Source: an uncultured Pelagibacteraceae bacterium
GTDB taxonomy: Bacteria > Pseudomonadota > Alphaproteobacteria > Pelagibacterales > Pelagibacteraceae
Assembly (NCBI GenBank): GCA_902517495.1
Contig: CABYCO010000001.1
Coordinates: forward strand, 1-64,000
Direction: 5' to 3'
DNA: 64,000 bases
Position numbers and translations under genes: made by a program. Every line of letters begins with the position of its first letter. Within the stretch, counting starts at the first letter, position 1. Shown piece by piece: positions 8,164 to 63,438 of this stretch. Under the pieces are notes generated by a model, which had not been told where the DNA came from, ran no database searches, and was given only the letters and a program-made list of their open reading frames with translations.

Positions 8164-8200
8164 AATAAATCGCTTAAAGACTCCTCAATTTAACTAAAAA

Positions 8201-9723: not shown

Positions 9724-9803
9724 AAAATGCTTGAAGCTATAATTATAATCGAAGTTGTAGCAATTATTTGGTATGTGACCAATAAATGATAAAATTATAA
9801 ATA

Positions 9804-9850
9804 GGATTTTATAGGACAACTTGTAGAAAACTTGTAGCAAAAGAGATGAA
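9804..9850 (+). repeat. island leader module, copy 6
   Basis: Reads ggattttataggacaactt followed by gtagaaaacttgtagc, the 'acttgtagaa' version of the paired repeat shared with copy 5. It precedes the intact 75-aa gene. Confidence 0.55.
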
Positions 9851-9867
9851 ACAAAAAATGGGACAGT

Positions 9868-10095
9868 GTGAATAAAGAAAACGCAAGTAAACTGTGGAAA
9901 ATGATACAGGAAGCTGGCGATTATTTGGAAGGACAACTTCCAGATCATCCTAATCATCCTAAAGGCAGAAATCCTTATGCTCATGTAGCAATTTGCGTAA
10001 AGAGTAAATTCAACGCAAGTTACAAAGATATTGAGGATGAAAAATTTGATGAAATAGTAAGTTATATAAATTTCCTTAAAGAAAATCCTAGCTAA
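9868..10095 (+). CDS. 75-aa protein of unknown function, intact member of a locally repeated family
   Basis: Starts with GTG; soluble, no signal peptide, begins MNKENASKLWKMIQEAGDYL. A central proline/histidine stretch (LPDHPNHPKGRNPYAHVAIC) is followed by an acidic C-terminal helix ending FLKENPS. Two decayed copies lie at 5996 and 8024, each behind a leader module, so this looks like the surviving member of an expanded family. I do not recognise the function. It ends one base before the convergent threonine aldolase gene. Confidence 0.7.
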   Translation: MNKENASKLWKMIQEAGDYLEGQLPDHPNHPKGRNPYAHVAICVKSKFNASYKDIEDEKFDEIVSYINFLKENPS

Positions 10096-10096
10096 A

Positions 10097-11143: not shown

Positions 11144-11145
11144 AA

Positions 11146-12261: not shown

Positions 12262-12262
12262 T

Positions 12263-13168
12263 TTAGTTTAAACCTATAAATCTTCTATTAGACTGCATAA
12301 TGAGGCTGTAGTAAAAAATTGACATAAATATAAAAAATCCACCAATAATAGTATTCGTAGATGGGACTTCATTAATTCCCATCCATGGTAACCACACCCA
12401 GAATATTCCACCGATTACCTCAGTGAGTGAGAGTAAAGTTAGATCAGCTGCTGGAATATTTTTTGATCCAATTGAATATAATATTAAACCCATACATACT
12501 AGAGTTCCATGAGTAGCAAATAAGGCTTCATTTTTTCCAGTAGATAAAAAATTAGCATCGTTCGACATCAGCATTACAGCAGAAAATATGAAACAGAAAA
12601 ACCCCGCAAAGGCTACAGTAGTAAATTTTGGGGTTTCTTTTCTCCATCTAAGTGAAACAGAAAAAATTGAGAAACCTAATGCAGAAATAAGTCCAAACAC
12701 AAGCCCTGGCAATGAATTTTTACCAGAATTGTCAAAAGCCATTATACATATACCCACTGCTGCAACTACAATCGCAATCCATACTGTTAATGAAATTTTT
12801 TCTTTTAAAAATAAAAATCCTAATAAGGCTGTTATAAATGGCATTGCCGCAAGACAAAGTAAAGTAATAGCTGCTGTGGTATTAGTAATTGACCATATAA
12901 ATGTTATCATTGCGGTACCAAGACCAATACCTCCAATTAGACCCGATATACCCACTTTAAAATAATTTTTATAAAACTCTTTTCCTTCCTCAAGGAACAA
13001 ATACATATTAAGCAAAAGAAAAATAACTATTCCTCTAGTAAATAAATATTGCCAAGGAACTGTTTCTGGCTGATCGATGTGCCTTACAACATATGGACCA
13101 AATGACCAAAAAATACCAGCAATTAATACGATTGGGATGGCTACTTTAGGATTTTTTAAGTTTAGCAT
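12263..13168 (-). CDS. EamA/DMT family transporter
   Basis: A 301-aa membrane protein with about ten hydrophobic segments arranged as two EamA halves (drug/metabolite transporter superfamily). First half ends LLGFLFLKEKISL, a typical EamA signature. It is the first gene of the transporter-amidinotransferase-aldolase run, with 1-2 base spacing, so it may export or import a guanidino compound or amino acid of that pathway. Substrate is inferred only from context. Confidence 0.88.
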   Translation of the reverse strand: MLNLKNPKVAIPIVLIAGIFWSFGPYVVRHIDQPETVPWQYLFTRGIVIFLLLNMYLFLEEGKEFYKNYFKVGISGLIGGIGLGTAMITFIWSITNTTAAITLLCLAAMPFITALLGFLFLKEKISLTVWIAIVVAAVGICIMAFDNSGKNSLPGLVFGLISALGFSIFSVSLRWRKETPKFTTVAFAGFFCFIFSAVMLMSNDANFLSTGKNEALFATHGTLVCMGLILYSIGSKNIPAADLTLLSLTEVIGGIFWVWLPWMGINEVPSTNTIIGGFFIFMSIFYYSLIMQSNRRFIGLN

Positions 13169-13246
13169 GTGCTATTTTTTTATTTAAGAAGTATGAAAAT
13201 ATAAATATAAATTTGTATAATAACAATCAAATAAATACTCAAATTA

Positions 13247-13642
13247 ATGGATATTAATATTTTAAAAATAGCTTCTGATACCAAAAACAATAAACATATT
13301 AATAACTGCACTCATTCGATGAAATATAAAAGTCAAATTTGTGGTGATGAGATTGAAATTTTTTTAATTATTAAAGACAATGTTATAAAAGATTTCTCTT
13401 ATCAGTCTCAATCTTGCATATATTGCAATGCATCTGCAAATTTAGCTACAAAAAATTTTAAGAAAAAAAGTAAAGATAAAATTAAAAATTTTTTAAAATT
13501 GTTGGATAAGTTTAATGATAAAGAAAATATTTCATTTCCAAATGAATGGAAAGAGTTTAAAAAAATCTTTGATAAAAAAAATTATGCGAGAAAAGAATGT
13601 TTAACGCTTCCAATAAAAGCTTTAAAAAAAGTAATACAATAA
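13247..13642 (+). CDS. NifU/IscU-like iron-sulfur scaffold protein
   Basis: A 131-aa protein resembling SUF-type NifU/IscU scaffolds. Three cysteine sites match the family: QICGDEIEIF (first Cys near 28 with Asp two residues later), SCIYCNASANLATK (second, with an extra Cys in CIYC) and ARKECLTLPIKAL (third). The family holds a transient Fe-S cluster for transfer. The gene abuts the HPP gene with no gap rather than a suf cluster, so the target is unclear. Confidence 0.75.
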   Translation: MDINILKIASDTKNNKHINNCTHSMKYKSQICGDEIEIFLIIKDNVIKDFSYQSQSCIYCNASANLATKNFKKKSKDKIKNFLKLLDKFNDKENISFPNEWKEFKKIFDKKNYARKECLTLPIKALKKVIQ

Positions 13643-14104
13643 ATGAACAAAGATAAAATTATAAGATCCCTTTTAGCGTTGATTTTTACAATTATAACAA
13701 TTGGTGTTCTCACTTTATTAACTTATAAAACTAATTTTGGACTTTTTTTAATTGCATCATTTGGATCCTCAATGGTTCTTTTATATGGTTACCCAGAAAG
13801 TCCATTTGCGAAACCTAAAAATATATTATTTGGTCATCTAGTAACTTCAACAATTGGAATTCTATTTTATAATTTTATCCCATTGCCAATTTATATATCA
13901 ATACCTTTAGCGGTAGGTCTTGGTGTTGGATTGATGATTTTACTAGATGTAACCCACCCCCCAGCTGGAGGAAATCCTATTATAGTCATATTGGGCTCAG
14001 TATCGTTTGACTATTTGTTCTCTCCAATATTAACTGGATGTTTGATTATAATAGCCTTTGGAATTATTCTGAATAAATTCGTTGCTAAAAAGAAATACCC
14101 CTAA
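13643..14104 (+). CDS. HPP family membrane protein
   Basis: A 153-aa protein with four hydrophobic segments and the family hallmark THPPAGGNP near residue 110. HPP proteins are small inner-membrane proteins; some cyanobacterial and plant members transport nitrite. Begins at the base after the NifU-like stop, indicating cotranscription. Nitrite transport here would be inference only. Confidence 0.82.
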   Translation: MNKDKIIRSLLALIFTIITIGVLTLLTYKTNFGLFLIASFGSSMVLLYGYPESPFAKPKNILFGHLVTSTIGILFYNFIPLPIYISIPLAVGLGVGLMILLDVTHPPAGGNPIIVILGSVSFDYLFSPILTGCLIIIAFGIILNKFVAKKKYP

Positions 14105-50037: not shown

Positions 50038-50520
50038 TTATTTATTGTTATTTTTTAAATACTCACCGTATCTTTTTAAACTTTCCTCTGGCCATGTTTT
50101 TTTTGGATCATACATTTTTTCAAAACAAATTACATCATCTGTAAGGTTTAACCATGGATCTTTATCTTTTGTAAATATGTGGACCTGGGGAGGAAAATTT
50201 TCTGAATTATTTAAAGTTTTAGTCCTAACTGTTAGTCTACCAACAGCAGATGCATAATCTGTGTAAATATAAGCACCACATTTGTTACAAAAAAATGCTC
50301 TGGAAGTAGCTCCACTACCTGCTTTAAGTTCAGTTGATGAAACTTCGCCTTCTATGATTAAAGTATTATCCAAAACACTTGAATTAATAACATAAGATGA
50401 TCCAGTTATAATTTTACAATCTTTGCAATGACAAGCTTGGGTGAATAAAGGTTTTTCTGTGATTGTATATTTAACTTGCCCGCATATACATCCGCCGGTT
50501 AAGTTTTTATTTTTTTCCAT
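50038..50520 (-). CDS. GFA/CENP-V family zinc protein
   Basis: A 160-aa paralogue with GGCICGQVKYTI, QACHCKDCKIITGSSY and FFCNKCGAYIYTDYA. Tandem with the previous gene. Possible roles in formaldehyde-thiol chemistry connect it loosely to formate dehydrogenase, but no direct evidence. Confidence 0.87.
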   Translation of the reverse strand: MEKNKNLTGGCICGQVKYTITEKPLFTQACHCKDCKIITGSSYVINSSVLDNTLIIEGEVSSTELKAGSGATSRAFFCNKCGAYIYTDYASAVGRLTVRTKTLNNSENFPPQVHIFTKDKDPWLNLTDDVICFEKMYDPKKTWPEESLKRYGEYLKNNNK

Positions 50521-50554
50521 TTTTAATATTTAATCTATTTGTGGTTAAAGTTAT

Positions 50555-50575
50555 CCACATGTATACAATATGTGG
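50555..50575. promoter_or_regulatory. palindrome in the GFA-umuD divergent region
   Basis: CCACAT (50555-50560) and ATGTGG (50570-50575) form a perfect 6-bp inverted repeat around a 9-base centre. It lies about 35 bases upstream of the GFA start and may be an operator for it. Sequence alone cannot confirm. Confidence 0.35.
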
Positions 50576-50667
50576 TTTCGATGTTCACGTTTTGATTCAC
50601 TTTTGATTCAGTTACAGACTCAAAATACAACCTGATTGACACTATTGAATAACTTAGATATTAATTA

Positions 50668-50682
50668 GAACAAAATAAGAAC
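50668..50682 (+). promoter_or_regulatory. LexA/SOS box of umuDC
   Basis: Perfect GAAC-N7-GAAC, the alphaproteobacterial SOS box, ending 4 bases before the umuD ATG. Its position so close to the start codon implies the repressor would block the transcript at or near the start. Confidence 0.75.
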
Positions 50683-50686
50683 ATTT

Positions 50687-51082
50687 ATGAAGCTAACCAT
50701 ACCTTACTATTTACATAAAGCTGGCGCAGGTTTTCCATCCCCTGCTACGGATTATATTGAGGAAGATATCGATTTAAATGTTCATTTAATCAAAAATGTT
50801 CCAGCAACCTTCATCATAAGAGTTCAAGGAAAATCAATGGTAGATGTTGGGATTAACGATGGCGATCTATTAGTTGTTGATAAAAGTTTAACACCAAAAA
50901 ACTTCTCAACAGTTATTGCAAATGTTCATGATGAACTAGTTGTTAAAAGTTTAGTTCAAGAAAGAGATAAAAAATTTTTAACATCAGGTTCTAAAGAATT
51001 TACAGATCGAATTTTAATTAACGAAGAAGAAGATGTATTTATTTGGGGAGTTGTAACTTATGTCATCCATTCAGTATACTAA
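50687..51082 (+). CDS. umuD: UmuD-like autoproteolytic subunit
   Basis: A 131-aa LexA-like serine protease subunit of polymerase V. Ser near 50 (GKSMVDVG) and Lys near 87 (ELVVKSL) keep the 37-residue spacing of E. coli UmuD (S60/K97). The processing site is AGAGFPSP: cleavage probably after Ala14 at Ala-Gly, instead of E. coli's Cys-Gly. Overlaps umuC by 23 bases. Confidence 0.93.
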
Positions 51083-52337
51083 AAAAATAGCACTTATTGA
51101 TTGTAATTCTTTTTATGTTTCTTGTGAAAGATTATTCAATCCTAAAATAAGAAAAAAACCTGTTGTAGTTTTATCTAACAATGATGGTTGTATAATTTCA
51201 AGATCAACTGAAGCAAAAGCTTTAGGTATTAAAATGGGAGAGCCTTACTTTAAAGCAAAAGATATTATCATTAAAAACAAAGTTGAAGTTTTTTCATCTA
51301 ATTATTCCTTATATGGAGATTTATCTAGAAGAGTAATGCGAACACTAAAAAGATTTAACTCTGCTATAGAAGTTTATTCTATTGATGAAGCATTTTTAGA
51401 CTTATCGAATTTTGCAGATAGTGAAGTTGAAAAAGTCGGAAAAGAAATTAGAGAAACAGTTTTAAAATGGACAGGTATTCCAACTAGTATTGGAATTGCT
51501 AAAACAAAAACTTTAAGTAAAGTTGCAAACCATATTGCAAAGAAAAAAGAATCAGGTGTAACAAGTTTAATAGGAATTGAAAATATTGATCCTATATTAG
51601 AAAAAGTTGAAATTAATGATGTATGGGGTGTAGGAAGGCAATTGACAAAGTTCTATCATAAAAATGGAATTTATAATGCTAAGCAACTAAAAAATAAATC
51701 AAATACATGGGTAAAGAAAAATTCAAATGTTTTGGGTTCAAGAACTGCAATGGAGCTTAGAGGAATTCCTTGTATTGATATTGAGACAACTCAATCAAAA
51801 AGAAAAAGTTGTGTGGTATCCCGTTCTTTTGGTCAAAGGATTGAAAAATACCAAGAATTAAAAGAAGCAGTTGCAAATTATTGCTTGAATGCATCAGAAA
51901 AAATAAGATCTGAGTCTTTGATTGCAAAATCAATTACTGTTTTTGTTAGAACAAGTCCTTTCCAAAGTAGATTTGGGTACTATTCAAACTCAAAAACGAT
52001 AGATTTTGCAATTTCTACGAACAATAGTATTGAAATAGTTAAAACTGCCTTGGTTGCTTTAGACTCTATCTTTAAAAACGGTTATCGTTATCAGAAAGCG
52101 GGCGTAATGCTTACTGGTTTATCCAATGAAGATCGTAGTAAGAACCTATTTTATTCTGAAAAAGACGAGAAAATTAAGGGTTTAATGAAGTCTATTGATA
52201 ATACTAACTATCGGTACGGAAGATCTACGTTAAGTCTTGCTAGTGCTGGTGTTCAAAAAAGATGGAACATGAGAAGAGAGCATTCATCTAAAATAGATAC
52301 AGCTGATTTCTACTTGCTACCAACAATCAGAACTTAA
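51060..52337 (+). CDS. umuC: DNA polymerase V catalytic subunit UmuC
   Basis: A 425-aa Y-family translesion polymerase. Catalytic palm motifs: [16 protein letters not shown] and [24 protein letters not shown] and [12 protein letters not shown] follow (helix-hairpin region). Intact length. Controlled with umuD by the SOS box; recA is in the same window. Confidence 0.95.
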
Positions 52338-53761
52338 TTTAAAGGTGCTAAAACAATTTTAATATTTTCAGTTTTATCAGAATATTCTTCAAACATTCCT
52401 GATCCTTTAAATGTAGCGTTGTTATTTTTTAAAATAACTAAAACAGAAGTAGTCTCTTGATCAGTATCAAGATCAAGATCCCCCTGAATTCTGATTTCAT
52501 CATCGTAATACTGTAAAATTTTTATTTTTTTACGATATTTGTCAGAAATAATATTGCTTGATCCAATTTTTTCAAATTGAAATTTGCCATTTTTAAAAAT
52601 AATTACATCTGAAACTATACGTTCATTCCTAGTTACTTTGTTTGTAACATTATTAGTATTAACCCAGTACCAATTGAGTTTATATTTTCCCTCAAGTTTT
52701 ATTTTGCTTTTTGGTAAAGTTAATTTTGCTTTTTTTTTAGAAATTTCTTTTTTATTACTCCAATGTATATCTTTATAAAAAGCAACTGCCATAGGTGGCT
52801 CAAAGTCTGAAAATTTCTTTATACTTTCACCACCTTTTCTCCAAGAGTAAATACCCCATTGAAAGTTAAATCTTTGCTGGCTTTTTTTACCATCTCTCTT
52901 GGCTACATCTTGATTAATTGGAGCAGTTACACATTTTATACAACTAAAGATTTCTCGATTGTCATGCTTTAAAGTTAATTCACCAAGTTTATTCTGAGCC
53001 CACAAAATATCTATTTCAAATTCAATCCATTTATTATGGAAATTTCCTTTTCTAGAAATTATTAATGCATTTTCTTTACTATGAGAATCTAAATTATCAG
53101 TAAAAATTACTGATCTAAAATAGAAAGCTAAATCACCATGTTGTATCGCATTTGGATTTAAAGTATCACCTTTTGAAGCAATTACATTTCCTTTTTTATC
53201 AACAGTGTTAACTATGCCTAAATCAGAACTTGGAACTATAACAAATTTATAAGGTACGTCTTCATCACCATACCCGTGGAGTTGGCCAAAATGCATAATA
53301 TCATCATAAACACCAAGATGATCGACAGTTGGATTATCGGATATAAAAACACTAAATTTTATTTTTGTTCTATGCCCATATTTTGCTGCCATGTTATTGT
53401 CATTTGGAAAATTTAATTCACTTCTTTTAAGTTTGATTGCCAGACTTTTTTCTCTACAATCCCAACTGTTATCAGCACATCCCTTAGTTAATTGAAATCT
53501 TTGCACATTCCCTTTTACTCCAGGAAAATTTGATACTAAAATTGCCCCATCATTGGCGGCTATATTCTTTCTATGAAGTTTTTCACCTTTATGTTTAATA
53601 ATTTTGCTTTTAAATTTTAAGTTTTTATCAATCTCTAATATTTGAGGTATTTTATTCTTTAATTCATAATCATATTCACTGCTAATATAATTGTTTTCAC
53701 TAGCTGTTAATATCGAAGGAACTATAAAAAGTAAAAATAATAGTTTTTTCATTTTATACAA
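52334..53761 (-). CDS. secreted polysaccharide-lyase-like protein, jelly-roll type
   Basis: A 475-aa exported protein with signal [17 protein letters not shown]. Residues about 60-340 share features with the other two jelly-roll paralogues in the operon ([17 protein letters not shown], and [13 protein letters not shown] near 300), resembling heparin-lyase-I-type polysaccharide lyases (PF14099-like). An added C-terminal domain of about 110 residues reads like a lipocalin/beta-barrel. Start overlaps the preceding alginate-lyase-like gene by 13 bases. Catalytic residues not assigned. Confidence 0.6.
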
Positions 53762-54882
53762 TTAGCATTAAATCCAATTAGATTGTCTATGCCATACTTT
53801 GGTCTTTTGGCTAAATAAGTAATATCTTTTTCATGTTTTATTCCAGTTACCATTTCCATTAAGGTATCAATAGCTAAAGCCTCTTGATGTGTGTGCTTTC
53901 TAGCATTATGTTTTTTATATTGATTATTTTTTTGCTTACCATCGTATTTTCTTGAGGAGAAACTTTCATAATCAGTGATCCCTAAATTTAATACTTCTGC
54001 TGCTTTAGTAATTCTATTGATAACTGAGTCTGGAACTTTAGCCCCCCAATTTTTAGCTAAATAGATGTATCCTAAAGCTGAATTTAAACCATAAGAGTGA
54101 TACCATAAGGCTCGAAACCCTCTAAAAGAATTATTATTGATATAGCCATCATCATAAAACACCTCCTCTATATTTTTAAATCTAAAATTGAATTCTTTTG
54201 CTGCTAGTTTTTTATTGTTTGTCCAATGAGCATAAGCTAAGTTTGGAATTCCTCCGTTTCCCATCGCATAAAATCCTTTTTCTTTCTCTAAAAATTCTTC
54301 AGGCTTAATAAATTTTTTATGCATTTTTTTAATATACTTGTTAACAATTTTAATTTCTTTATCACTTAAGTAATCTTTAAGATAAATTGCTATCAGCAAA
54401 TAATTTGTAAAAGCATCCCTTGCAAATTCATATGCATGATACCAGCAAGGTGCCTCGGGATTTCCATCTTTCCAACATTTTGGTTTCTTTTTTAACTCTT
54501 CTTTACCGATTGTATCTAGTAAAACATTTGCTTTAGCAATTTTAATCAATATTCCTTTAGCGGCATCAATGTCAGTTATATCATTATCGCCAATTGCATT
54601 ATGGGTAGCAACAGCAAACGAGCTCATTGGACCAGTTAGATTTAGGTGATTTACACTTCTAGAATTACCAAGCGCCCATTCACTCATCCAATCTAAACGT
54701 ATTAAGCTTTCAATTCTAGCTTTTTTATATTTAGATTTAAAAGTCTCACTACCCACATAAGAGCATGATTTAATCTTATCTGTATAAAAATGTTTTGGAA
54801 AAGATATATCTTTAGATTTAACTTTTGCTTCAGCAGATAAACATAAAAATATGCCAAATAAAGTTAAATAAATTTTTTTCAT
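53749..54882 (-). CDS. secreted alginate-lyase-superfamily protein
   Basis: A 377-aa exported protein with signal MKKIYLTLFGIFLCLSAEA and helical architecture (alpha/alpha barrel). The mid-section NNSFRGFRALWYHSYGLNSA near 255-270 resembles the substrate-binding region of the alginate lyase family (PF05426), and GNGGIPNLAYAHW precedes it. Asn, His and Tyr are available for beta-elimination; substrate is presumed to be an acidic polysaccharide. Confidence 0.65.
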   Translation of the reverse strand: MKKIYLTLFGIFLCLSAEAKVKSKDISFPKHFYTDKIKSCSYVGSETFKSKYKKARIESLIRLDWMSEWALGNSRSVNHLNLTGPMSSFAVATHNAIGDNDITDIDAAKGILIKIAKANVLLDTIGKEELKKKPKCWKDGNPEAPCWYHAYEFARDAFTNYLLIAIYLKDYLSDKEIKIVNKYIKKMHKKFIKPEEFLEKEKGFYAMGNGGIPNLAYAHWTNNKKLAAKEFNFRFKNIEEVFYDDGYINNNSFRGFRALWYHSYGLNSALGYIYLAKNWGAKVPDSVINRITKAAEVLNLGITDYESFSSRKYDGKQKNNQYKKHNARKHTHQEALAIDTLMEMVTGIKHEKDITYLAKRPKYGIDNLIGFNANCIK

Positions 54883-54891
54883 TTATATATT

Positions 54892-56073
54892 TTAAAATTT
54901 TCCAACTTTACTTTCATAGTGGACATAGCATGCATTATTCTCTTGGTCAGAAAAATTAGTGAATTTTTCCATACACTTAGTTAAACCCTCTTTAGCTGCA
55001 CCAGCTTTACTGAATCCTATATACTTTAAAAGATATTTATCGTCATTTTTATTTTTAATAATCGCTAAAAAGTTACCTTTCATTTCCTCAAATTTTATTT
55101 CTTCAGGAACAACTTTAGAAGTAATTCTCTTTATTTTTTTTGCCCCCTCAGGCATATATTCTGAATCACGGATTTTATATTTATATTTTGATCTTGCTAT
55201 TTTATCTTTAGATTTGTAATCACATTTTTCTTTATCCATAATTTTTTCACAATTTTTACTTATTACATACTCTTTGATAGATAGAGTTGATGGTTCAATT
55301 AAGTCCGGGTTATAAGCTGTACTCCAATATCTATACAGACCAATTTTAAAAGCTATACCCCCAGTTTTGTCTAAAATCATGTTCGGTCCATAAAATTCGA
55401 TTACTTTTTCATCGTTTAACCACATTATAAATTCTCCATCATCTTTTTTAGATGGTTTTATTTTAAACAGTGCAGTGCTGTATTCTTTTTTAAATGCAGT
55501 TAAACTTCCTAAATCAAATTTATACAACTTTTGTTTAAATCTATTTGCTACAGGGTCAATATCTGTCCAGTAAACTTCCTCTATTTGTTTATAATAAAAT
55601 TGCATTCTATTGGGAAGATCGTCCTCATCGGTGGTGTACATAATTTGCATTGAGGGATAAATTATTTCACCGCCTTTTTTTGTTCCAACCACTTGCCAAA
55701 TATTAGCACTATGATTTTGACCAGCATTTAATTTAAAAGTATATTTTAAGTAAACTTCCTTACCAAGTTTGTGATAATTTTTCTTTTTAGTAACAAATTC
55801 CCACCTTTGTGCCTGGTCATCTGAAAGACCCCAGTCTTCAGGATGTCCTTTCATACTATAATCAAGGGTAATTTCTACAGCTTCCTCATCTTCATTGTAA
55901 TTAAGTATTTTTTTATGTTTTATCAAAGAGTCATATGCAAGACTCATTTTTTTCTTTGCTTCTTCACCAAGAATATCTTTTTTAAATTTTTTCAAAGCAT
56001 CAACTTTTTCTGCAAAGGCGTTTGTGTTTAAGATAAATATTAAAGAAAATATAATTATTAAGAATTTTTTCAT
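54892..56073 (-). CDS. secreted polysaccharide-lyase-like protein, jelly-roll type
   Basis: A 393-aa exported protein (signal to about residue 21). The core contains WEFVTKKKNYHKLGKEVYLK, SANIWQVVGTKKGG, MWLNDEKVIEFYGPN and GLYRYWSTAYNPD, each with a counterpart in the paralogue at 57097. A CEKIMDKEKCDYKS segment also corresponds. A C-terminal extension of about 90 residues is unique. Class assignment (PF14099-like) rests on pattern, not alignment. Confidence 0.6.
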   Translation of the reverse strand: MKKFLIIIFSLIFILNTNAFAEKVDALKKFKKDILGEEAKKKMSLAYDSLIKHKKILNYNEDEEAVEITLDYSMKGHPEDWGLSDDQAQRWEFVTKKKNYHKLGKEVYLKYTFKLNAGQNHSANIWQVVGTKKGGEIIYPSMQIMYTTDEDDLPNRMQFYYKQIEEVYWTDIDPVANRFKQKLYKFDLGSLTAFKKEYSTALFKIKPSKKDDGEFIMWLNDEKVIEFYGPNMILDKTGGIAFKIGLYRYWSTAYNPDLIEPSTLSIKEYVISKNCEKIMDKEKCDYKSKDKIARSKYKYKIRDSEYMPEGAKKIKRITSKVVPEEIKFEEMKGNFLAIIKNKNDDKYLLKYIGFSKAGAAKEGLTKCMEKFTNFSDQENNACYVHYESKVGKF

Positions 56074-56082
56074 TTGTATATT

Positions 56083-57093
56083 TTAGTTAAGTTTTAAATT
56101 TTTTGTTGAACCATCTTTATAAGTAAACTCTACCTCTTTTTTTGAAATGGATTTTATTGATGTAAAACCATCAAATTCAGTAATAAATTCGTTTAATTTT
56201 TTTCTATTTTTCTTCGACATTTTTTTACCTGGAGCGTTTATGCCAACATCAATAATTAGTTCAGCTCCATTTAAAAAAGCATTTACATATGCTTTTACTG
56301 GTGGGCCACAGGTCATAGCTTCAGTTAACCAAATAGGTTTGTCAATTTCAACACTTTTTAATAATGCAGCAAATTCATCAACCCAAAGCTGTTTGTCACA
56401 CTTTCCATCTGGACCGCTTATATGGTGAATGTTTGCAATATCGAAGTGATCCTTAATTTTTGGCAAAGCTGATTTCCAATATTTTTTATTTTCTGGAAAC
56501 ATTCCTGCAGCTCCCGCCATAACAATAACTGCATCTGTCTGCTGTTCTTTAATTACTTTTGAGGAAAAATTAAAGATTTCAACAAAATCTTCCTCACTTC
56601 CTTTAAAAAACATATCAAACTCAGGTTCATTCATCACATCCCAATATATAATTGGTTTTGTTAATCCAGGCATGTCATTTGAACCATCTCCATCATATCG
56701 ATCCACCAATTTTATAAGAAAAGTTTTATAATCTTCCATTGAACAAGGTTTGCTCAAATATTTTGTAAAATGTTTTCCAAATGGACTTCTGGCCTTTTTT
56801 CTTTTACAAGATTTTTGATCCCAATTTGAATGAGGCCATATGGTTGCTAAAATTGTTTGGTTGTGATCTTGAGCGTATACAACGTATTTATCTACATCTT
56901 CCCAAAAAAATTTGCCTTTTTCACTTTCTATATGATTCCAAACAAAGGGTCCTGGATGAGGTCTAACCCATTGACCATCTTTGCCACGCATTTTTTTATC
57001 TCTCATCTCGGTTAATTCACCAAATCTAGATTGAGAATTTGCAAAATTAGTCAAAAATAAGAGTGATAATAAAATCGTTAATAATTTTTTCAT
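56083..57093 (-). CDS. secreted glycoside hydrolase (clan GH-A type)
   Basis: A 336-aa exported enzyme (signal MKKLLTILLSLLFLTNFANS). TIM-barrel-like features: IESEKGKFFWEDVDKYV, TIWPHSNWD, IIYWDVMNEPEFDMFF with the acid/base Glu near 157, NIHHISGPDG, and PIWLTEAMTCG with the nucleophile Glu near 258. This fits retaining clan-A hydrolases (GH5/GH39/GH10-like). Substrate unknown. Confidence 0.75.
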   Translation of the reverse strand: MKKLLTILLSLLFLTNFANSQSRFGELTEMRDKKMRGKDGQWVRPHPGPFVWNHIESEKGKFFWEDVDKYVVYAQDHNQTILATIWPHSNWDQKSCKRKKARSPFGKHFTKYLSKPCSMEDYKTFLIKLVDRYDGDGSNDMPGLTKPIIYWDVMNEPEFDMFFKGSEEDFVEIFNFSSKVIKEQQTDAVIVMAGAAGMFPENKKYWKSALPKIKDHFDIANIHHISGPDGKCDKQLWVDEFAALLKSVEIDKPIWLTEAMTCGPPVKAYVNAFLNGAELIIDVGINAPGKKMSKKNRKKLNEFITEFDGFTSIKSISKKEVEFTYKDGSTKNLKLN

Positions 57094-57096
57094 TAA

Positions 57097-58059
57097 TTAA
57101 TTTATTTTGATTTCTGGTAAAGGCTTTTTCCATTTGATTGATTTAGTAATTTTTTTACCATACGTATTACTTCTATGACTATATTTTCTATATCTAACAT
57201 ATGAAATTGATTCTTTATTTTCTGATTTGTATAAGCATTTATCTTGATCTAAAATTTCCTCGCATTTATCACTAAATCCGAATTCTTTTACTGTTAAAGA
57301 TTGTGTCGGAGTTTCATTTAAAAGCGCATCTTTAAGCCATCGATAGAAACCCCATTTAAAAGTATATCCGTCTCCTATAGTAAAATTAGGACCATAAACC
57401 TCAAAAACTTTCTTATTATCAATCCAACCTATTAATTCTCCATTATCTTCTTTTGATGCTAAAATTTTAAAACTAATTGTTCTGTAATTTTTAAATTGAT
57501 CTACTGTTCCTAAAGGAAATTTGTATGAAACCTTGTCGAAATTAGAGTTTTCTGGGTCACCTTTTAAATAGAAAACTTCTTTAGTGAAGTTCAGCTGATG
57601 AACAACTTCATTTCCTCTATATTGTAATTTCATCCAGGGTAAAAGTCTCGAAGATCCTTTGTTGGCTATAACTTGAAAGAAACTCCCTCCTACTGCAGGA
57701 TGTATAGGAAATTCATTTAATTTAAAAGTATATTTGATGTATGTTGGCTTTTTAAATTTTCTTGGTTTTTTTTTATTTGCTATCTCCCATCTTTGATTTC
57801 TCTCACCAGTTCTTTCCCAATCGTTTTTATGACCTTTAAATTTCGTATCTAAAGTAATTTTTATTGCTTTACCATCTTCATCTTGATGTATAGATAGTGT
57901 TTTTTTCTTTGATATAGATCTATTTTCCTTTGATAGCTCTTTTTTTGCTTTTCCAATCAGAATTTCTTTTTTTAAAAACTTATATGGATTTTCAGAAGCC
58001 TGGGAATATGTTGAGACTAAAACAAGAGATAATAAAATTAAAAAGAGTTTTTTTGTCAT
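57097..58059 (-). CDS. secreted polysaccharide-lyase-like protein, jelly-roll type
   Basis: A 320-aa exported protein (signal MTKKLFLILLSLVLVSTYSQA), the shortest of three jelly-roll paralogues. Features: RWEIANKKKPRKFKKPTYIK, SFFQVIANKGSSRLLPWMK, IGWIDNKKVFEVYGPNFTIG and FKWGFYRWLKDALLNE. It lacks the C-terminal extensions of the other two. Heparin-lyase-I-like (PF14099) fold is the best guess. Confidence 0.62.
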   Translation of the reverse strand: MTKKLFLILLSLVLVSTYSQASENPYKFLKKEILIGKAKKELSKENRSISKKKTLSIHQDEDGKAIKITLDTKFKGHKNDWERTGERNQRWEIANKKKPRKFKKPTYIKYTFKLNEFPIHPAVGGSFFQVIANKGSSRLLPWMKLQYRGNEVVHQLNFTKEVFYLKGDPENSNFDKVSYKFPLGTVDQFKNYRTISFKILASKEDNGELIGWIDNKKVFEVYGPNFTIGDGYTFKWGFYRWLKDALLNETPTQSLTVKEFGFSDKCEEILDQDKCLYKSENKESISYVRYRKYSHRSNTYGKKITKSIKWKKPLPEIKIN

Positions 58060-59213
58060 GCTTTAAATAATTTATCTGATAAGTTTTGAAGTTCATCTCC
58101 CCAGAAAACTTCTTTCTGAATTCTTTTAAAATCTATATCAAAAACAGTAGACATGGCAGATGCATAAACAGATCTAGCATCAATTGTTGAATTTAAATCT
58201 CTTCCTTCAAATAATTCTTTTCTCTTTAGTCCTGGCCAATCAGAATAAACTTGGGATTGCTTTAGTAAACCACCTGCCATAAATATTGCTGAACCATAGC
58301 CATGTTCAGTGCCTCGTCCTCCATTTTGTTTAATAGTTCTTCCAAATTCCGTTAAGGTTAAAACCAAAGTATTTTCTATCTCTGATCCTAGGGCTTTCTC
58401 TAAACTTTTAAAAATTGAATCCATTTCAATCAAACTATCTGAATGTGAACCATTCACTCCACCCTGTGCAGCATGAGTATCAAAACCATCAACTTCAAAA
58501 ACAGCAACTCTTGGACCATTTACTTTTTTTAATTCTAAACCTGCTTTATGGGCTAAAGATGAATTCTTTCTAGACATAGAAGTGCCTCCATTATTCATCA
58601 TAGATCGGTTAGCAATTATTTCCATCATATTAGCTAGCTCATGTTCAGATTTATCTGCATAAATTGATTTCAGAAGTTGTAAAAATTCTGTTCGAGGTAA
58701 TCTTTTTTTTGATGGATAAAAATTATCATTACTAGGAATACCTCTAAGAAGTAAAGGCATTGGTAGTGCCAATGCAAGACCATCACCCTTTAAATCTGCT
58801 AACTTCATTCCTCTTCCTAACCAACCAGTTTTTATAGAGTAAGGTATATGACCTCCTGTCTCCATTAAGTTTTGTCCATCAAAATGGGATCTCTTAGTAT
58901 ATGGAATATTTGTTGCATGAACTATTGCTCCTAGATTATTTTGCCACAAATTATGAAAATTTTTTAATTTCGGATGAAGAGCAAAATCTGAATTTAATTT
59001 AATTATTTGATCTAGAATTAAATCTTTTCTTTTCTTTTCAAAATTCTTGTCACCAATTATTGGAACAGCACATAAACCATCCATTCCACCTCTTAACATT
59101 ATAACAACAAGATTTTTTTTCTTGTCTGTATTTGCTAAAACAGGAAAATTAAATCCAGCTAAAAATAATGTAGTAGCTGAACCTTTTAAAAAATTTCTTC
59201 TTGATATTTTCAT
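58056..59213 (-). CDS. DUF1501 family Tat-exported protein
   Basis: A 385-aa protein with a twin-arginine signal (MKISRRNFLKGSATTLFLAG). DUF1501 motifs: VVIMLRGGMDGLCAVP, HFDGQNLMETGG, FEVDGFDTHAAQGGVNGSH and TLTEFGRTIKQNGGRGTEHG. The fold is alkaline-phosphatase/sulfatase-like; function unknown. Overlaps the DUF1800 gene by 4 bases, the usual pairing. Confidence 0.92.
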   Translation of the reverse strand: MKISRRNFLKGSATTLFLAGFNFPVLANTDKKKNLVVIMLRGGMDGLCAVPIIGDKNFEKKRKDLILDQIIKLNSDFALHPKLKNFHNLWQNNLGAIVHATNIPYTKRSHFDGQNLMETGGHIPYSIKTGWLGRGMKLADLKGDGLALALPMPLLLRGIPSNDNFYPSKKRLPRTEFLQLLKSIYADKSEHELANMMEIIANRSMMNNGGTSMSRKNSSLAHKAGLELKKVNGPRVAVFEVDGFDTHAAQGGVNGSHSDSLIEMDSIFKSLEKALGSEIENTLVLTLTEFGRTIKQNGGRGTEHGYGSAIFMAGGLLKQSQVYSDWPGLKRKELFEGRDLNSTIDARSVYASAMSTVFDIDFKRIQKEVFWGDELQNLSDKLFKA

Positions 59214-60637
59214 GATTTAAGTGTCTCCGGTAAATTAAATAATATTACATGTTTATGAACAAGTTCTTTGTGCTGGTTTAATATCTGAAGAATTTCATTT
59301 GGATTATCGTAATTTTTTTGAACCATTTCTTCATAAAATTCAGGTGTCTGTGATTTACTTGACTTTTTATAGAAAGCTTCTTTTGCGTAAACTAATCTTC
59401 TAATTAACAATTCGGGGGACATCCAATCGTCAGAAATGTCTGACCATCCATTAGGTTGTTTTGCTAAATATGGATGATGACCTAATTCTCTAAGCAAGTG
59501 CTCTAATGATCTTTGACCATTTGTTGGTTTTTGGCCTAAGGAGTATAAATCCATCAATTTAGGTGTTGGTATTAAATTTACATCAGACATTTTACTCATT
59601 TGTAAAAGCCAATTCTCGGGATTTTGAAATTTATAATTTTTATCAGAATAATTGAAAGCAACTTCAATAGCTGCTTTATGAACTTCTGGTAAAAAACCAT
59701 CTGATTTTTCCCAAGCTTTAATAATTGGTTCCATCATCTGTTTTGTAGGATTGTCAGTTATAAGATACCTACAAAGTTTCATTGCAATAAACTTTCTACA
59801 AGATGGATGATTTACAAGATCAGTAATTACAGCCGATAAACTTTTTCTACCTCTTTTATATTTTTTTCCTAAGACTATTTTAGTACCTGGTTCATGAGCA
59901 TCAGGGTTGAAATGGACATCACCTGTCTCCAGTCTTTTCTTCCCCCACTTGGGTCTCCATCCACTCATTATATATGCCATTTGAATTATATCTTCTTGTG
60001 TATATCCACAATCTGGAGACACAGTGTGAAGTTCTAGAAGCTCCCTTGCATGATTTTCATTTACACCTTTTTTTTTTCCTTTTTCTCTAGCCCACTGGGC
60101 TTCTTGACTTTTGGGTCCAATATTTTGATCATTATCTAGGTGGTGTATCATTGACCACCCAACTGTAGCCTCCTGTACCATTTTTTCAAAATTTTGATTC
60201 ATGTTAGCTCTAATAATTTCTCGTTGATATGCTCCAGTTGTATATTGCGCTAAAAAATCTTTTTCACTAATCGCAAAATGATTTCCCCAAAAGTACCAAA
60301 GCTTAGCTAAAACAGGAGTTTCACTTTTTATAGCCTCTGAATGTCGTATACAAAGTTCAAGGTTCCACCAAAATTTTTGCCCAGTTGTATGCCTTAACTT
60401 ATTTTTTTCTCTTTTGTAGCCATCTTTATCATTTTTAAATTTTTTTCTTAAAACTTTTCTATCTCCATAAACATAATCCCTATAATATTTTCTAAGTTCT
60501 TTTTCTGGTAAAATTTTTCCCTTCCAAGAAAATTCAGGAATGTCATTCAATTGATTTGTTGCCCATTTTAATGGGTCAGAGGGTGTTTTATCTTCTGGTC
60601 CAAGTCCAAATGCTACTTTACGATAAAAATTTTTCAT
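59210..60637 (-). CDS. DUF1800 family protein
   Basis: A 475-aa protein matching DUF1800: KVAFGLGPEDKTP at the N-terminus, WFWGNHF-type LWYFWGNHFAISEKDF, NENHARELLELHTVSPDCGYTQED and FIAMKLCRYLITDNP. No signal peptide is seen. It always accompanies DUF1501; biochemistry unknown, but the pair is often linked to exported or surface material. Confidence 0.92.
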   Translation of the reverse strand: MKNFYRKVAFGLGPEDKTPSDPLKWATNQLNDIPEFSWKGKILPEKELRKYYRDYVYGDRKVLRKKFKNDKDGYKREKNKLRHTTGQKFWWNLELCIRHSEAIKSETPVLAKLWYFWGNHFAISEKDFLAQYTTGAYQREIIRANMNQNFEKMVQEATVGWSMIHHLDNDQNIGPKSQEAQWAREKGKKKGVNENHARELLELHTVSPDCGYTQEDIIQMAYIMSGWRPKWGKKRLETGDVHFNPDAHEPGTKIVLGKKYKRGRKSLSAVITDLVNHPSCRKFIAMKLCRYLITDNPTKQMMEPIIKAWEKSDGFLPEVHKAAIEVAFNYSDKNYKFQNPENWLLQMSKMSDVNLIPTPKLMDLYSLGQKPTNGQRSLEHLLRELGHHPYLAKQPNGWSDISDDWMSPELLIRRLVYAKEAFYKKSSKSQTPEFYEEMVQKNYDNPNEILQILNQHKELVHKHVILFNLPETLKS

Positions 60638-60655
60638 AAACTATTTTAAAATATA

Positions 60656-61525
60656 CTATTTCAAAGTGTCAATATCTGAAATGTTTGTTAATGAATTATT
60701 AAATTCAGTCATATTTTCTCTTCCTGAGATTTTTAAAATAATTAAACCAAAAATAATTATTAAGGCCAAAGGTATAGCTGTAATTATACTTATATATTCA
60801 GCAATTATTATTAAATATATTGCATAAAATGCTATCGATCTAAATATTACAGCTGACTTAAACACAGCGATTATTGCTAAAGAATGCTTTATCAAATTTA
60901 AAAAGCTCATTTTTGAGGGGCCAAAGTATCTTGATCCTCTTATTGAAGGAGATTTAATTAAATTATTTTCTGTTTTTGCTAATGAACCAGAAAAACTACT
61001 CCAAGTTGCTTTCTCTTCAATTAATTTTTTAACAGTTTGTTTTGAGAGACAAGTGAAGTTTCCAAATTTAATAAATTTTCCAGTAAAGGTAAAAGTAATA
61101 ATTTTATGTAAAAAGTAACAAATTTTAAAAATAAAACTTTCAGTTCTTTTTACTCTCTCCCCAACTATTGTGCTGTTTGGATTATCTTTAATTTTTTCAA
61201 CAAAATTTCTTATTTCTTCTGGTCTATCTTCTCCATCTCCATCCATAGGAATAACAAAGTCAAATTCCTCGTTTTCTGTAATATGTTTTAGTCCTGCAGC
61301 AATACATCTTGCGTGACCCTTATTATTTCTCATATTTATTAATTTTAATGATTTAATATTATTTAAATTTTTAGTTTCTAAATTTTTTTCCTCTGTTGAA
61401 GCATCATTCACTATTATTACTGAAAATGAAGCATTAAAGTCAGAGATATTAATATCAATTTCTTCAATTAATTTTGATACAGATTTAAAATCATTAAAAA
61501 CTGGAATTAGTATAGTTATATTCAT
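60656..61525 (-). CDS. family 2 glycosyltransferase with membrane domain
   Basis: A 289-aa GT2 of the dolichol-phosphate-mannose-synthase/ArnC type: TILIPVFNDFKSVSKLI, IIVNDASTE, NKGHARCIAAGL, FVIPMDGDGEDRPEEI (metal DxD). Two to three hydrophobic segments (about 210-270) anchor it. The usual job is moving a sugar onto a polyprenyl phosphate for use outside. Its ATG overlaps the stop of the 41-aa gene (TAATG). Confidence 0.9.
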   Translation of the reverse strand: MNITILIPVFNDFKSVSKLIEEIDINISDFNASFSVIIVNDASTEEKNLETKNLNNIKSLKLINMRNNKGHARCIAAGLKHITENEEFDFVIPMDGDGEDRPEEIRNFVEKIKDNPNSTIVGERVKRTESFIFKICYFLHKIITFTFTGKFIKFGNFTCLSKQTVKKLIEEKATWSSFSGSLAKTENNLIKSPSIRGSRYFGPSKMSFLNLIKHSLAIIAVFKSAVIFRSIAFYAIYLIIIAEYISIITAIPLALIIIFGLIILKISGRENMTEFNNSLTNISDIDTLK

Positions 61526-61650
61526 TAACTTACTGAGCCTATTAGTCTAAAAAGAGATGCAAAAAAACCGTATCCTGAAAGTTCAATTAAAATCACAATC
61601 CCAATGATAAATAAAAGCCTCTTGTTTTTTTGATTTAATTGAAATTTCAT
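61525..61650 (-). CDS. small membrane protein linking two glycosyltransferases (41 aa)
   Basis: A 41-codon gene beginning MKFQLNQKNKRLLFIIGIVI with one transmembrane helix. Its ATG overlaps the stop of the GT39 gene (ATGA), and its stop overlaps the ATG of the GT2 gene (TAATG). Coupling at both ends argues strongly that it is translated. No known family; a membrane-anchored subunit or small sugar-carrier partner is conceivable. Confidence 0.75.
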   Translation of the reverse strand: MKFQLNQKNKRLLFIIGIVILIELSGYGFFASLFRLIGSVS

Positions 61651-62960
61651 TTATATTTTAGACATTTCATATCTTTGTTGCACAACTGAACTTCACTAGA
61701 GTTATAAATCCATTTTGGTCTTTCTTGAAGGTGGTAAGATATATTTCCTGCAATCCATTCATTACCCTTAATATATTCCATTTTTCCAAGATCCTTACCT
61801 TCGGTTTCATAAAAAACTTTAGCCTGCTGAGCTAACTTTTTACCTTCAAAATCAGTTCTTTTATCAGTTTGAGTAATTGAAATATAAGAATACAAAAATG
61901 GAGATAACAAGAATAATATTAAAAAGATTGAAGAAAAAGCTCTCATTTTTTCAAAATTAATTTGCGATTTTAGAATATAAACAAATAACAAGCCAAAGCT
62001 TATATAAAATGGCGTCATCCACATAGTTCTTATTTTTATGCCCATAGTAAATGATGTTAGAAAAATAAATAAAATAGGAATTAAATTTATTGATATCAAA
62101 AACAAAAACTTATCATCATCTAAATTAATATTTATTTTAAATTTTTTAACTAAAACAAAAACCATTAATAAAAATGGTAATAATAATCCAATTTGCTTAC
62201 CTAAAAACATCGTAGGATGCTTTATATGATTAAAAATACTTGCTTCTTCTGAACCAGTTCTGAGAAGTCCATAAGTAATGGTTATATAATCATTTTCTGT
62301 TAACCAAATAATGTGTGGTAATAAAATTATAATAAAGGGGATAAAAGAAACTAGACACTTAAAATTTAGTCTTTTTGTATAAATCATGTAAATTAAAAGC
62401 ACATCTATTGCTAAACCTAAATAAATAAATAAATATTTTGATAGGAAACCAAGTCCAGCGAATAGACCAAGTAATAACCAATCTAATATTTTATTATTCT
62501 TAATACCTCTCCATAAAAAAAAGACAGAAAGAGACCAAAAAGGAACTAAACAAACATTTACATTAAATTCAGGTGAAGTGAAATTATAGAAATATATTCC
62601 TTCTAATAACAAAACAGATAGTAAACAATAAATTTTATTATCAAAAAAATCTTCAGCTAATTTAAAAACTACAATGAATGAAACTACGATGCAGATTTGA
62701 CTTAATAAATAATAAGCCCAGTCTTGAGGTCCAAAGATTAGATAAAATATTTCAGGTAGAAATGCACTCATTGGGGGATGCTTATTAAATCCCCATTCTA
62801 GGTTGCTACCCCATGCTAATGCCTCTATAGTATCAAGTGGTAAATTATGATTTGTGAAACTTGGAACCAGTGTCCAGATTAATAAGTGTGTTGTAACAAA
62901 AATATAAAATAAATTATTAATATTCTTTTTGTAAATGGCCATTTTTATTAATTTATACAA
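61647..62960 (-). CDS. family 39-type glycosyltransferase (PMT-like)
   Basis: A 437-aa integral membrane protein with about ten hydrophobic segments, of the ArnT/PMT (GT39/GT83) group. EALAWGSNLEWGFNKHPPMS near the N-terminus carries the conserved acidic-His-Pro region; LAEDFFDNKIYCLLSVL and FAGLGFLSKYLFIYLGL follow. It uses polyprenyl-phosphate sugars, presumably made by the GT2, and acts outside the inner membrane. First gene of the ten-gene run. Confidence 0.85.
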   Translation of the reverse strand: MYKLIKMAIYKKNINNLFYIFVTTHLLIWTLVPSFTNHNLPLDTIEALAWGSNLEWGFNKHPPMSAFLPEIFYLIFGPQDWAYYLLSQICIVVSFIVVFKLAEDFFDNKIYCLLSVLLLEGIYFYNFTSPEFNVNVCLVPFWSLSVFFLWRGIKNNKILDWLLLGLFAGLGFLSKYLFIYLGLAIDVLLIYMIYTKRLNFKCLVSFIPFIIILLPHIIWLTENDYITITYGLLRTGSEEASIFNHIKHPTMFLGKQIGLLLPFLLMVFVLVKKFKININLDDDKFLFLISINLIPILFIFLTSFTMGIKIRTMWMTPFYISFGLLFVYILKSQINFEKMRAFSSIFLILFLLSPFLYSYISITQTDKRTDFEGKKLAQQAKVFYETEGKDLGKMEYIKGNEWIAGNISYHLQERPKWIYNSSEVQLCNKDMKCLKYK

Positions 62961-62971
62961 TTAATGCATTC

Positions 62972-62999
62972 TTGACACTGATTAAATGATGAATATATT
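62972..62999 (+). promoter_or_regulatory. sigma-70-type promoter of dksA
   Basis: Perfect -35 TTGACA (62972-62977), 16-base spacer and -10 TATATT (62994-62999). Transcription should begin near 63006, after the ATGs at 62986 and 62989, which therefore would not be the translation start. Confidence 0.65.
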
Positions 63000-63021
63000 C
63001 TCGAAATTCATAAATTTGAGT

Positions 63022-63438
63022 ATGGTAAAAATCTCTAAAAAATATATCCCAAAAGAAACAGAAAAGTATATGTGCGCTAAGCATCTTGCTTTTTTTAAAC
63101 AAAAACTGACAGATTGGAAAAAAGATCTAAAAAGAACAAACAATGAAGCAATATTTAATGCTTCAATGGATGATAATAGCGCTTCTGCAGATATTGTTGA
63201 CCAAGCAAGCTCTTATACAGAAAAAAATGTTGAGATGAGAGCAATCAATAGACAGATAAAATTAATTTCTAAAATTGATGGAGCTTTAAAAAAAATTCAA
63301 GATGGAACTTATGGTTTCTGTGAGGAAACCGCTGAACCTATCGGTCTTAAAAGATTAATGGCAAGACCAGTTGCTACTTTATGTATAGCTGCTCAGGAAA
63401 AGCATGAAAAGGAAGAAAAAGTTTACGCTGATATTTAA
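63022..63438 (+). CDS. dksA: DksA/TraR-family RNA polymerase regulator
   Basis: A 138-aa DksA-type protein when started at ATG 63022 (MVKISKKYIPKETEKYMCAK), which the upstream promoter and family length favour over 62986. Coiled-coil region (residues about 20-95) has the acidic tip ASMDDNSASADIVDQAS. The zinc-finger region (GFCEETAEPIGLKRLMARP then TLCIAAQEKHE) has only two of the four usual cysteines, as is common in alphaproteobacterial versions. It binds RNA polymerase with ppGpp to tune rRNA and amino-acid promoters. Confidence 0.92.
   Translation: MVKISKKYIPKETEKYMCAKHLAFFKQKLTDWKKDLKRTNNEAIFNASMDDNSASADIVDQASSYTEKNVEMRAINRQIKLISKIDGALKKIQDGTYGFCEETAEPIGLKRLMARPVATLCIAAQEKHEKEEKVYADI

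Follow-up and report, generated by a model that had tools for sequence, protein, structure and literature searches.

A SAR11 ten-gene run as a probable composite of a fixed glycosyltransferase flank, a DUF1800-DUF1501 pair, and interchangeable lyase-type cassettes

The window analyzed here is a 64,000-nucleotide stretch of contig CABYCO010000001.1 from an uncultured Pelagibacteraceae bacterium of the SAR11 group (assembly GCA_902517495.1, genome G000; 1.05 Mb, 46 contigs, 79% complete). At positions 52334 to 62960 it carries ten minus-strand genes that are, on balance, probably a composite of three parts: a fixed flank formed by an ArnC-like GT2 and a PMT_2 glycosyltransferase, an independent DUF1800-DUF1501 pair, and interchangeable cassettes for exported, lyase-type enzymes that end at umuC. 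The initial annotation had described ten genes packed on one strand with overlaps or gaps of at most 18 bases, and all of these open reading frames (ORFs) are in place on the minus strand. Since relatives repeat all ten genes on the same strand with similar packing, this is not a chance run of ORFs. The further idea, that the run is a closed system for building and remodeling a glycan, did not hold up, as the ten genes do not occur together as one unit in relatives.

A slot between a glycosyltransferase pair and umuC

Conservation of the gene order was followed in fetched genome stretches of relatives (numbered with L). The window's clade comprises 48 loci, from which seven open-ended arrays were dropped and 41 complete arrays counted. 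These hold 25 distinct cargos of 0 to 8 genes each, the empty state, found in six, being counted as well; the window's own order, F1-F4-F7-F3-F13, occurs in one array of the 41, namely the window itself. Here F numbers denote the clusters of variable genes, 14 of which have four or more members. A tally of the 134 cargo genes in the 41 arrays gave 96 jelly-roll or PL5-like genes, 15 GH10-like genes, and 23 others. Family order is mostly kept where two families co-occur, with exceptions for F4/F1 (4:4), F3/F1 (6:4), F5/F1 (3:4), and F3/F2 (10:3). That this is a slot filled with interchangeable cassettes is a conclusion we hold with high confidence.

The window's five cassettes, all on the minus strand and all with signal peptides judged by eye from the N termini, begin next to DUF1501 with PLc (F1, 57097..58059), a jelly-roll, polysaccharide-lyase-like protein (PF14099, E = 7.2e-10). 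It is followed by GH10l (F4, 56083..57093), a possible clan-A glycoside hydrolase (PF00331, E = 0.0085, below cut-off), by a second jelly-roll, polysaccharide-lyase-like protein, PLb (F7, 54892..56073; PF14099, E = 8.5e-11), by the PL5/alginate-lyase-like PL5l (F3, 53749..54882; PF05426, E = 0.0027, below cut-off), and by PLa (F13, 52334..53761), a jelly-roll with a C-terminal domain (PF14099, E = 3e-5, below cut-off). The TTG starts listed for this last gene and for the PMT gene are probably artefacts; the probable starts are an ATG at 53752, which gives a 4-base overlap with the neighboring gene, and, as read in the sequence, an ATG at 62942.

Both sides of the slot are constant. A search with the DUF1800 protein returned 47 loci from named genomes, of which 46 belong to SAR11 and have DUF1800 proteins 85 to 97% identical. 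In mapped relatives, one constant block consists of DksA, PMT, a 41-amino-acid (41-aa) protein, GT2, DUF1800, and DUF1501, and a second contains umuC, a umuD-like gene, and, further on, recA; the content between both blocks varies. The window's first block starts with the DksA gene (62986..63438, plus strand, identified with Pfam), the outer flank that adjoins PMT in relatives. The minus-strand genes that follow encode a PMT_2-type membrane glycosyltransferase of the GT-C type (61647..62960; PF13231, E = 4.8e-32), the 41-aa membrane protein (61525..61650), recognized from its sequence and its conservation in close relatives, the ArnC-like polyprenyl-phosphate GT2 (60656..61525; Glycos_transf_2, E = 1.3e-13), DUF1800 (59210..60637; PF08811, E = 2.7e-72), and DUF1501 (58056..59213; PF07394, E = 1.7e-23), which overlaps DUF1800 by 4 bases. 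On the far side lies the convergent umuC-type polymerase gene (51060..52337, plus strand; Pfam IMS). An extra gene stands between GT2 and DUF1800 in five loci, and the 41-aa protein is 90 to 100% identical in those of the loci L007 to L052 that reach it. In four stretches from other clades (L061, L062, L063, L085), a match to the 41-aa protein lies on the opposite strand beside DksA.

In the genus as a whole, umuC was found in 136 of 149 genomes. Forty wider stretches were fetched, 38 on the basis of umuC and two (L093, L094) on that of DUF1800; the seven that repeat earlier genomes (L056 to L059, L067, L075, L093) were left out before slot contents were compared, as were L001 to L006, L053, and L054. 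GT2 is present in all 40 stretches and PMT in 39, the other one (L068) stopping just past GT2. In L072, L074, L090, and L092, which belong to other clades, the GT2 and umuC matches are 5 to 36 bases apart with nothing between them; in L014, L020, L027, L047, L048, and L052, DUF1501 and umuC are separated by 6 bases in their coding matches (stop codons excluded). Because the glycosyltransferase pair is kept even without cargo between GT2 and umuC, it constitutes the fixed flank of the slot, and nothing seen beyond position ties the glycosyltransferases to the lyases.

ArnC/ArnT and GtrB/GtrS are pairs for lipid-linked sugar transfer, and the window resembles them in combining a polyprenyl-phosphate-type GT2 with a GT-C membrane transferase. 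The best solved relative of GT2 is ArnC (9hwj, E = 1.5e-12). Unlike the known pairs, the window's GT2 misses the NCBIfam equivalog cut-off for ArnC (60.8 versus 529 bits, E = 1.1e-16). The PMT search for solved relatives gave just one, unconvincing match (0.095). Among the ten genes there was no Pfam match to a polymerase, flippase, or polysaccharide synthase family.

The initial annotation had noted that DUF1800 and DUF1501 occur together, and this proved correct well beyond SAR11. A DUF1501 profile matched 71 of 241 alphaproteobacterial genomes, G000 included, and in all 20 surroundings fetched from the other 70, mostly those with the strongest matches, DUF1800 is directly followed by DUF1501. 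No jelly-roll, PL5-like, GT2, or PMT matches were found in these 20 stretches at the thresholds used. Thus the pair is autonomous: it is an independent unit that resides in the slot of the window's clade. Within the genus, DUF1800 is present in 44 of 149 genomes; PF14099 occurs in 29 of these 44 and in 42 of the 105 without DUF1800 (Fisher p = 0.004, uncorrected for phylogeny), and DUF1800 and PL5-like genes show no association (p = 1.0, uncorrected for shared descent). The conserved pattern of DUF1501 (RGGMDG, DTH, EFGRT, GTEHGYG) presumably resembles the metal site of the alkaline-phosphatase superfamily. Its TAT_signal match is under the cut-off (19.1 versus 22.7 bits), and a twin-arginine motif was read in the sequence; DUF1800, which has no signal peptide by eye, may ride with the Tat-exported DUF1501. 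No solved relatives were found for DUF1501 in a single-sequence search or for DUF1800 in a profile search. Two stretches carry the pair duplicated in tandem (L125, about 8863 to 14022; L134, about 6849 to 12019). According to the accessible part of PMC5122149, chitin synthase operons elsewhere contain DUF1800 and DUF1501, with a twin-arginine motif and an adjoining GT2 enzyme as in the window; the window's GT2 differs in being ArnC-like and apparently a positional neighbor, and no chitin synthase match was found. The main text of PMC5615132 does not mention DUF1501.

The lyase families concentrate at the slot. PF14099 has 142 hits in 71 of the 149 genus genomes, and 82 of these hits, from 44 genomes, fall in the 25 kb 3' of umuC, an interval that makes up about 2% of such a genome by arithmetic and so sets the expectation from length alone. 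PL5-like proteins have 48 hits in 46 genomes, 37 of them in the slot. Lyases are found there without DUF1800-DUF1501 as well. The slot of the wider genus may hold a PL5-like gene alone, PEP-carboxylase-like genes, urease-like operons, transporters, or jelly-rolls, each with or without the DUF pair. Ten further cargo representatives were checked: F2, F5, F6, F10, F12, and F20 pass PF14099 and F11 passes PF05426, and the other kinds include F8 (choice-of-anchor), F9 (amidohydrolase), and F19 (beta-lactamase-like, 27.1 versus 27 bits). Urease, PEP carboxylase, AmtB, DMT transporter, GMP reductase, sulfatase, and TRAP protein were named by eye only.

Several observations tell against a dedicated lyase slot. 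Sixty of the 142 PF14099 hits are outside it, and the 20 stretches examined around such hits include single or paired genes, at several sites, between genes that several of these stretches have in common; eight of the genomes with PF14099 hits have no umuC match, so that their hits cannot be placed in the slot. The same slot also houses genes resembling those for urease and PEP carboxylase, a transporter, and others, and therefore nothing forces a link to glycans. Finally, cargo distance is weakly correlated with core distance (r = 0.20, Mantel p = 0.002, 736 pairs).

Individual arrays show further peculiarities. Urease-like genes stand beside umuC in L068, L070, L088, L128, L129, L130, L137, and L138, and a PEP-carboxylase-like protein of about 895 aa lies between GT2 and umuC in ten genomes (L064, L077 to L081, L083, L084, L086, L087). 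The F8-F14-F9 block has two opposite-strand genes, unlike other cassettes (L025, 14078 to 15252, minus strand; also L008, L009, L010, L051, L055). In L019 (16837 to 19171), PL5-like, split F6-like, and F13-tail pieces lie together, which points to a cassette that is chimeric or in decay. The window has no tRNA; no recombinase was noticed in it, recombinases and repeats not having been searched systematically. The Rfam small RNA SAR11_0636 (RF01827, 112 bits) is located at 50543 to 50632 on the minus strand, adjoining the umuD-like gene. A sigma-70-like 11/12 match directly precedes the DUF1800 start (60643 to 60672, minus strand); the promoter scan of the region gave 70 sites compared with 62.9 (standard deviation 7.7) in shuffles, a count no higher than chance that therefore says nothing on transcripts.

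Junctions and divergence of the cassettes

Synonymous differences were compared in the same genome pairs after excluding matches with less than 70% identity, less than 80% cover, or a length not a multiple of three, as well as pairs with fewer than three core genes. For F3 the synonymous difference is 0.044, compared with 0.38 in flanking genes, and it is under half of the core value in 115 of 116 pairs. The same holds for F6 (45 of 45 pairs), F9 (20 of 21), F10 (10 of 10), F11 (6 of 6), F12 (10 of 10), and F13 (6 of 6), and for 24 of 45 pairs in F2. F3 alone also recurs at other sites, in three members of the genus (L119 to L121), as a 1146-base match of 97.6 to 97.8% DNA identity that comprises the gene with one or two preceding and about ten following bases. 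These three stretches have no other match of more than 250 bases to positions 50501 to 63000 of the window; umuC is 83% identical in two of the three genomes and gave no match in the third. No relatives of PL5l, GH10l, or F6 turned up in viral contigs, where each was sought with a few short peptide patterns only, and neither PLc in phage records nor PL5l in plasmid records had a match.

The junctions themselves are narrow, most of them being overlaps or gaps of a few bases (-4 to +9, with up to four examples per junction type). When the downstream neighbor differs, identity over the 12 bases that follow the stop codon falls to 0.27 to 0.76, and at 24 to 36 bases past the stop it is 0.20 to 0.52 (six testable families). 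When the upstream neighbor differs, identity is 0.52 to 0.73 over most of nucleotides 6 to 60 in F1, F2, F5, and F10 and recovers thereafter; these first ~60 bases are the signal-peptide codons. How similar the gene bodies are does not depend on the upstream neighbor in F1, F5, and F10, so body relatedness does not explain the dip. A seam within the signal peptide is thus quite likely. Cassettes would spread by recombination between cells, with joins often falling in an AT-rich ATGAAAAA-type signal-peptide block, such that start and export codons already in place come to precede the mature enzyme; the survivors would be in-frame export fusions only.

Not all families behave in this way, and those that do not count against such exchange. 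There is no clear synonymous drop in F1, F4, F5, and F7, for which the difference is under half of the core value in only 16 of 119, 11 of 118, 3 of 34, and 4 of 15 pairs, respectively; these families may therefore be old residents that were lost in some lines. The upstream effect is small or shorter in F3, small in F9, almost absent in F4, and absent in F6, and in F2 the body differs too when the upstream neighbor does.

Single-ORF cassettes in variable combinations, together with empty sites, are features shared with integron cassette arrays. An integron array was rejected for most junctions shown, as the spacers are too short for attC sites, in contrast to true integron arrays; an integrase was not searched for. 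Additive flexible genomic islands, as described in the accessible part of PMC10872708, likewise bring variable cargo to one site between core genes and differ among close relatives. The slot departs from them in that its cargo consists mostly of single ORFs packed within a few bases, mostly lyase-type in this clade, and in that several families have joins inside signal-peptide codons.

Folds and residues of the lyase-type proteins

Profile and structure comparisons agree with the lyase-like calls of the initial annotation. At the PF14099 cut-off of 29.9 bits, PLb (42.6) and PLc (39.5) pass and PLa (24.4) fails. With a profile of 24 jelly-rolls, matches were obtained to glucuronan lyase (2zzj, E = 1.4e-13) and heparin lyase I (E = 5e-5). 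PLc is the sole protein to be modeled well (AlphaFold, predicted local distance difference test score [pLDDT] of 88), and when its model was searched against polysaccharide lyase families as had been proposed, it matched lyase folds of PL7, PL20, and PL13 at Z scores of 15 to 17. Its top Foldseek match is 2zzj (E = 3.2e-9; template modeling [TM] scores of 0.48/0.62). The model superimposes on 2zzj with a Z score of 16.4 and a root mean square deviation (rmsd) of 3.8 over 216 aligned residues and on the PL7C enzyme 8bjo with a Z score of 16.9 and an rmsd of 2.9 over 194 residues, and in a viral structure library its best match is a giant-virus alginate lyase (1.2e-7). In the jelly-roll alignment the arginine is kept in 22 of 24 sequences and the tyrosine in all 24, and PLa carries the R-x-E, QxH, and Y positions (alignment A3). 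The proteins thus resemble PL20, PL7, and PL13 lyases in fold, in the R-x-E and Y positions, and, for PLb and PLc, in the Pfam match; they differ in low identity (7 to 16% between PLc and the solved lyases matched), in their SAR11 host, and in the many families per population.

For the PL5-like protein, a profile of 11 relatives finds PL5 lyases (7fhz, E = 4.3e-13) and alginate lyases. Like PL5 enzymes such as AlgL (PF05426), it has an RGxRAxxYH-type segment and a signal peptide by eye; it differs in that it falls below the PF05426 cut-off (17.6 versus 22.2 bits) and under curated NCBIfam cut-offs, and no alginate synthesis family is present among the ten genes. Where AlgL has an N-H pair, the window's protein reads G-G. 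Among slot relatives, L065 (124.3 bits), C50 of L094 (39.9), and F11 (29.4) pass PF05426, and C34 of L060 gives no match. The jelly-roll PLb (C terminus of 54892 to 56073), the jelly-roll C27 (L064, 16481 to 17722), and the PL5-like C50 (L094, 14950 to 16251), one of which has a weak DUF4189 match, have in common a C-terminal module of about 55 aa that carries CYVHY close to its end; the C-terminal domain of PLa recurs behind an F6 piece in L019 with 57% identity. Accessory domains, therefore, also move between enzymes.

The possible hydrolase was less amenable to assignment. The glutamates E156 (in NEP) and E258 (in TEA) are invariant across 12 GH10l sequences; the family itself was not confirmed by the PF00331 score (15.8 versus a cut-off of 22.1 bits), by the profile search of the PDB (best E = 0.35), or by the poor model (pLDDT 54). 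Class-wide, a search of 289 genomes found GH10l in G000 itself and in one other alphaproteobacterium, where this sole relative outside the genus lies in a 728-aa ORF (L117, 178 to 2364, minus strand).

Purifying selection acts on F1, F4, F5, and F7 (ratio of nonsynonymous to synonymous changes [dN/dS] of 0.065 to 0.11), which argues that their proteins do something. Judging from profiles and models, it is fairly likely that most jelly-roll and PL5-like members are true lyases. Points against the cassette reading as a whole are dN/dS ratios that are higher for F2, F3, F8, F9, and F10 (0.22 to 0.31, at low divergence) and the lack of profile or model support for the GH10l family. In addition, the Foldseek TM scores are moderate and the match list contains many non-lyase jelly-rolls, mostly below the lyases, so the fold alone does not show function. 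The residue two after the glutamine is histidine in some jelly-roll families and I, V, or K in others; the QxH histidine is absent from F1, F7, F2, most of F5, and the window-clade F6. Its loss need not mean a loss of activity, since glucuronan lyase reads Q-F-I at this position in the profile alignment. It could still be that some or most jelly-rolls are noncatalytic and serve as lectins or as decoys at the surface, against phage for instance, given the missing histidine, a fold common to lectin-like domains, and a strain-level variability reminiscent of phage-driven surface loci. With the arginine and tyrosine kept, the glucuronan lyase precedent, and PL5-like proteins accompanying jelly-rolls in many arrays, we regard this as improbable.

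Possible roles of the enzyme set

We propose that the slot between the glycosyltransferase pair and umuC is where SAR11 lineages insert cassettes of one gene each, most of them for exported enzymes of the polyuronate-lyase type. The enzymes would act in the periplasm or at the surface, cleaving uronic-acid-containing glycans by beta-elimination, and a strain-specific set may trim or clear the cell's own or adhering surface glycans. AlgL-like PL5 enzymes elsewhere clear polymer trapped in the periplasm, so trimming or clearing of the cell's own glycans is a fitting model. Strain-specific trimming enzymes would also make sense in view of the O-chain locus of Pelagibacterales, which is highly variable according to the accessible part of PMC11898729. 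Such surface trimming is a possibility that we put forward tentatively.

Feeding is the closest contender. The exported lyases would depolymerize algal or bacterial polyuronates (glucuronan-, heparin-, or alginate-like), small products would be taken up, and the enzyme set would track local polymers. The slot families do resemble degradative lyases, urease-like and transporter-like nutrient genes (by eye) share the slot, and a GH-A-like protein adjoins the lyases. Against this, GH88/105 and KduI were each found in 0 of 149 genus genomes, the controls being recovered from 3 and 6 of 14 genomes; the search covered neither DehR-type reductases nor exolytic lyase families, and feeding may proceed through exolytic enzymes. 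TonB receptors are present in just 10 of the 149 genomes and were not found in G000 at its 79% completeness, and the ten genes include neither a SusCD or TonB receptor, as a polysaccharide utilization locus would, nor an oligosaccharide transporter family. The absence of GH88/105 and KduI slightly favors trimming; the scavenging locus considered as an alternative in the initial annotation is weakened accordingly, and both it and feeding in general appear rather doubtful.

A slot that collects any useful gene, with its lyase richness lacking a shared purpose, would be an ordinary additive flexible island. Variable islands are already known in SAR11 and similar bacteria, as the accessible parts of PMC7318151 and PMC10872708 describe, and unrelated cargo does occur, both in other clades and as 23 of 134 cargo genes in the window's clade. 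The predominance there of two lyase-type folds (96 of 134), the strong concentration of PF14099 hits at the slot, and joins that keep signal peptides in frame make this explanation unlikely.

Least of all do we expect one coupled operon in which GT2/PMT makes a glycan, DUF1800/DUF1501 modifies it, and the lyases cut it: the tight one-strand packing, the uncorrected co-occurrence of DUF1800 with PF14099, and the DUF1800/DUF1501 genes of chitin synthase operons (in the accessible part of PMC5122149) speak for it, yet the window's order is unique among the 41 arrays, the glycosyltransferase pair occurs without cargo, lyases and the DUF pair occur without each other, DUF1800 shows no association with PL5-like genes, and all 20 alphaproteobacterial DUF pairs lack lyase and glycosyltransferase-pair matches. 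An obligate operon is largely refuted by these separable parts and by the 25 cargos in 41 arrays.

SAR11 bacteria are usually described as living on small dissolved molecules, and exported polymer-cutting enzymes are unexpected for bacteria with such a lifestyle. The presence of PF14099 in 71 and of PL5-like proteins in 46 of the 149 genomes suggests a widespread capacity to cut acidic polysaccharides or edit surface glycans. We found no description of such a capacity, the slot, the lyase cassettes, or the signal-peptide joins in the literature on SAR11 islands and polysaccharide lyases, on DUF1800/DUF1501, or on glucuronan lyase, of which subscription papers were mostly not covered. It is tempting, if speculative, to assume that SAR11 populations draw on a common pool of cassettes for mature secreted enzymes, which are exchanged at a fixed slot, without an integrase, downstream of start and signal-peptide codons already resident there, so that lineages carry differing uronate-polymer lyases and process acidic glycans in a strain-specific manner. 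The gene-precise joins would then be a natural record of secreted-enzyme swapping in a streamlined genome. Should the cell's own glycans be the target of the lyases, this slot would join the O-chain cluster as a second surface locus that changes fast, and if a shared pool exists, one of the most abundant bacterial groups of the ocean would process acidic glycans strain by strain.

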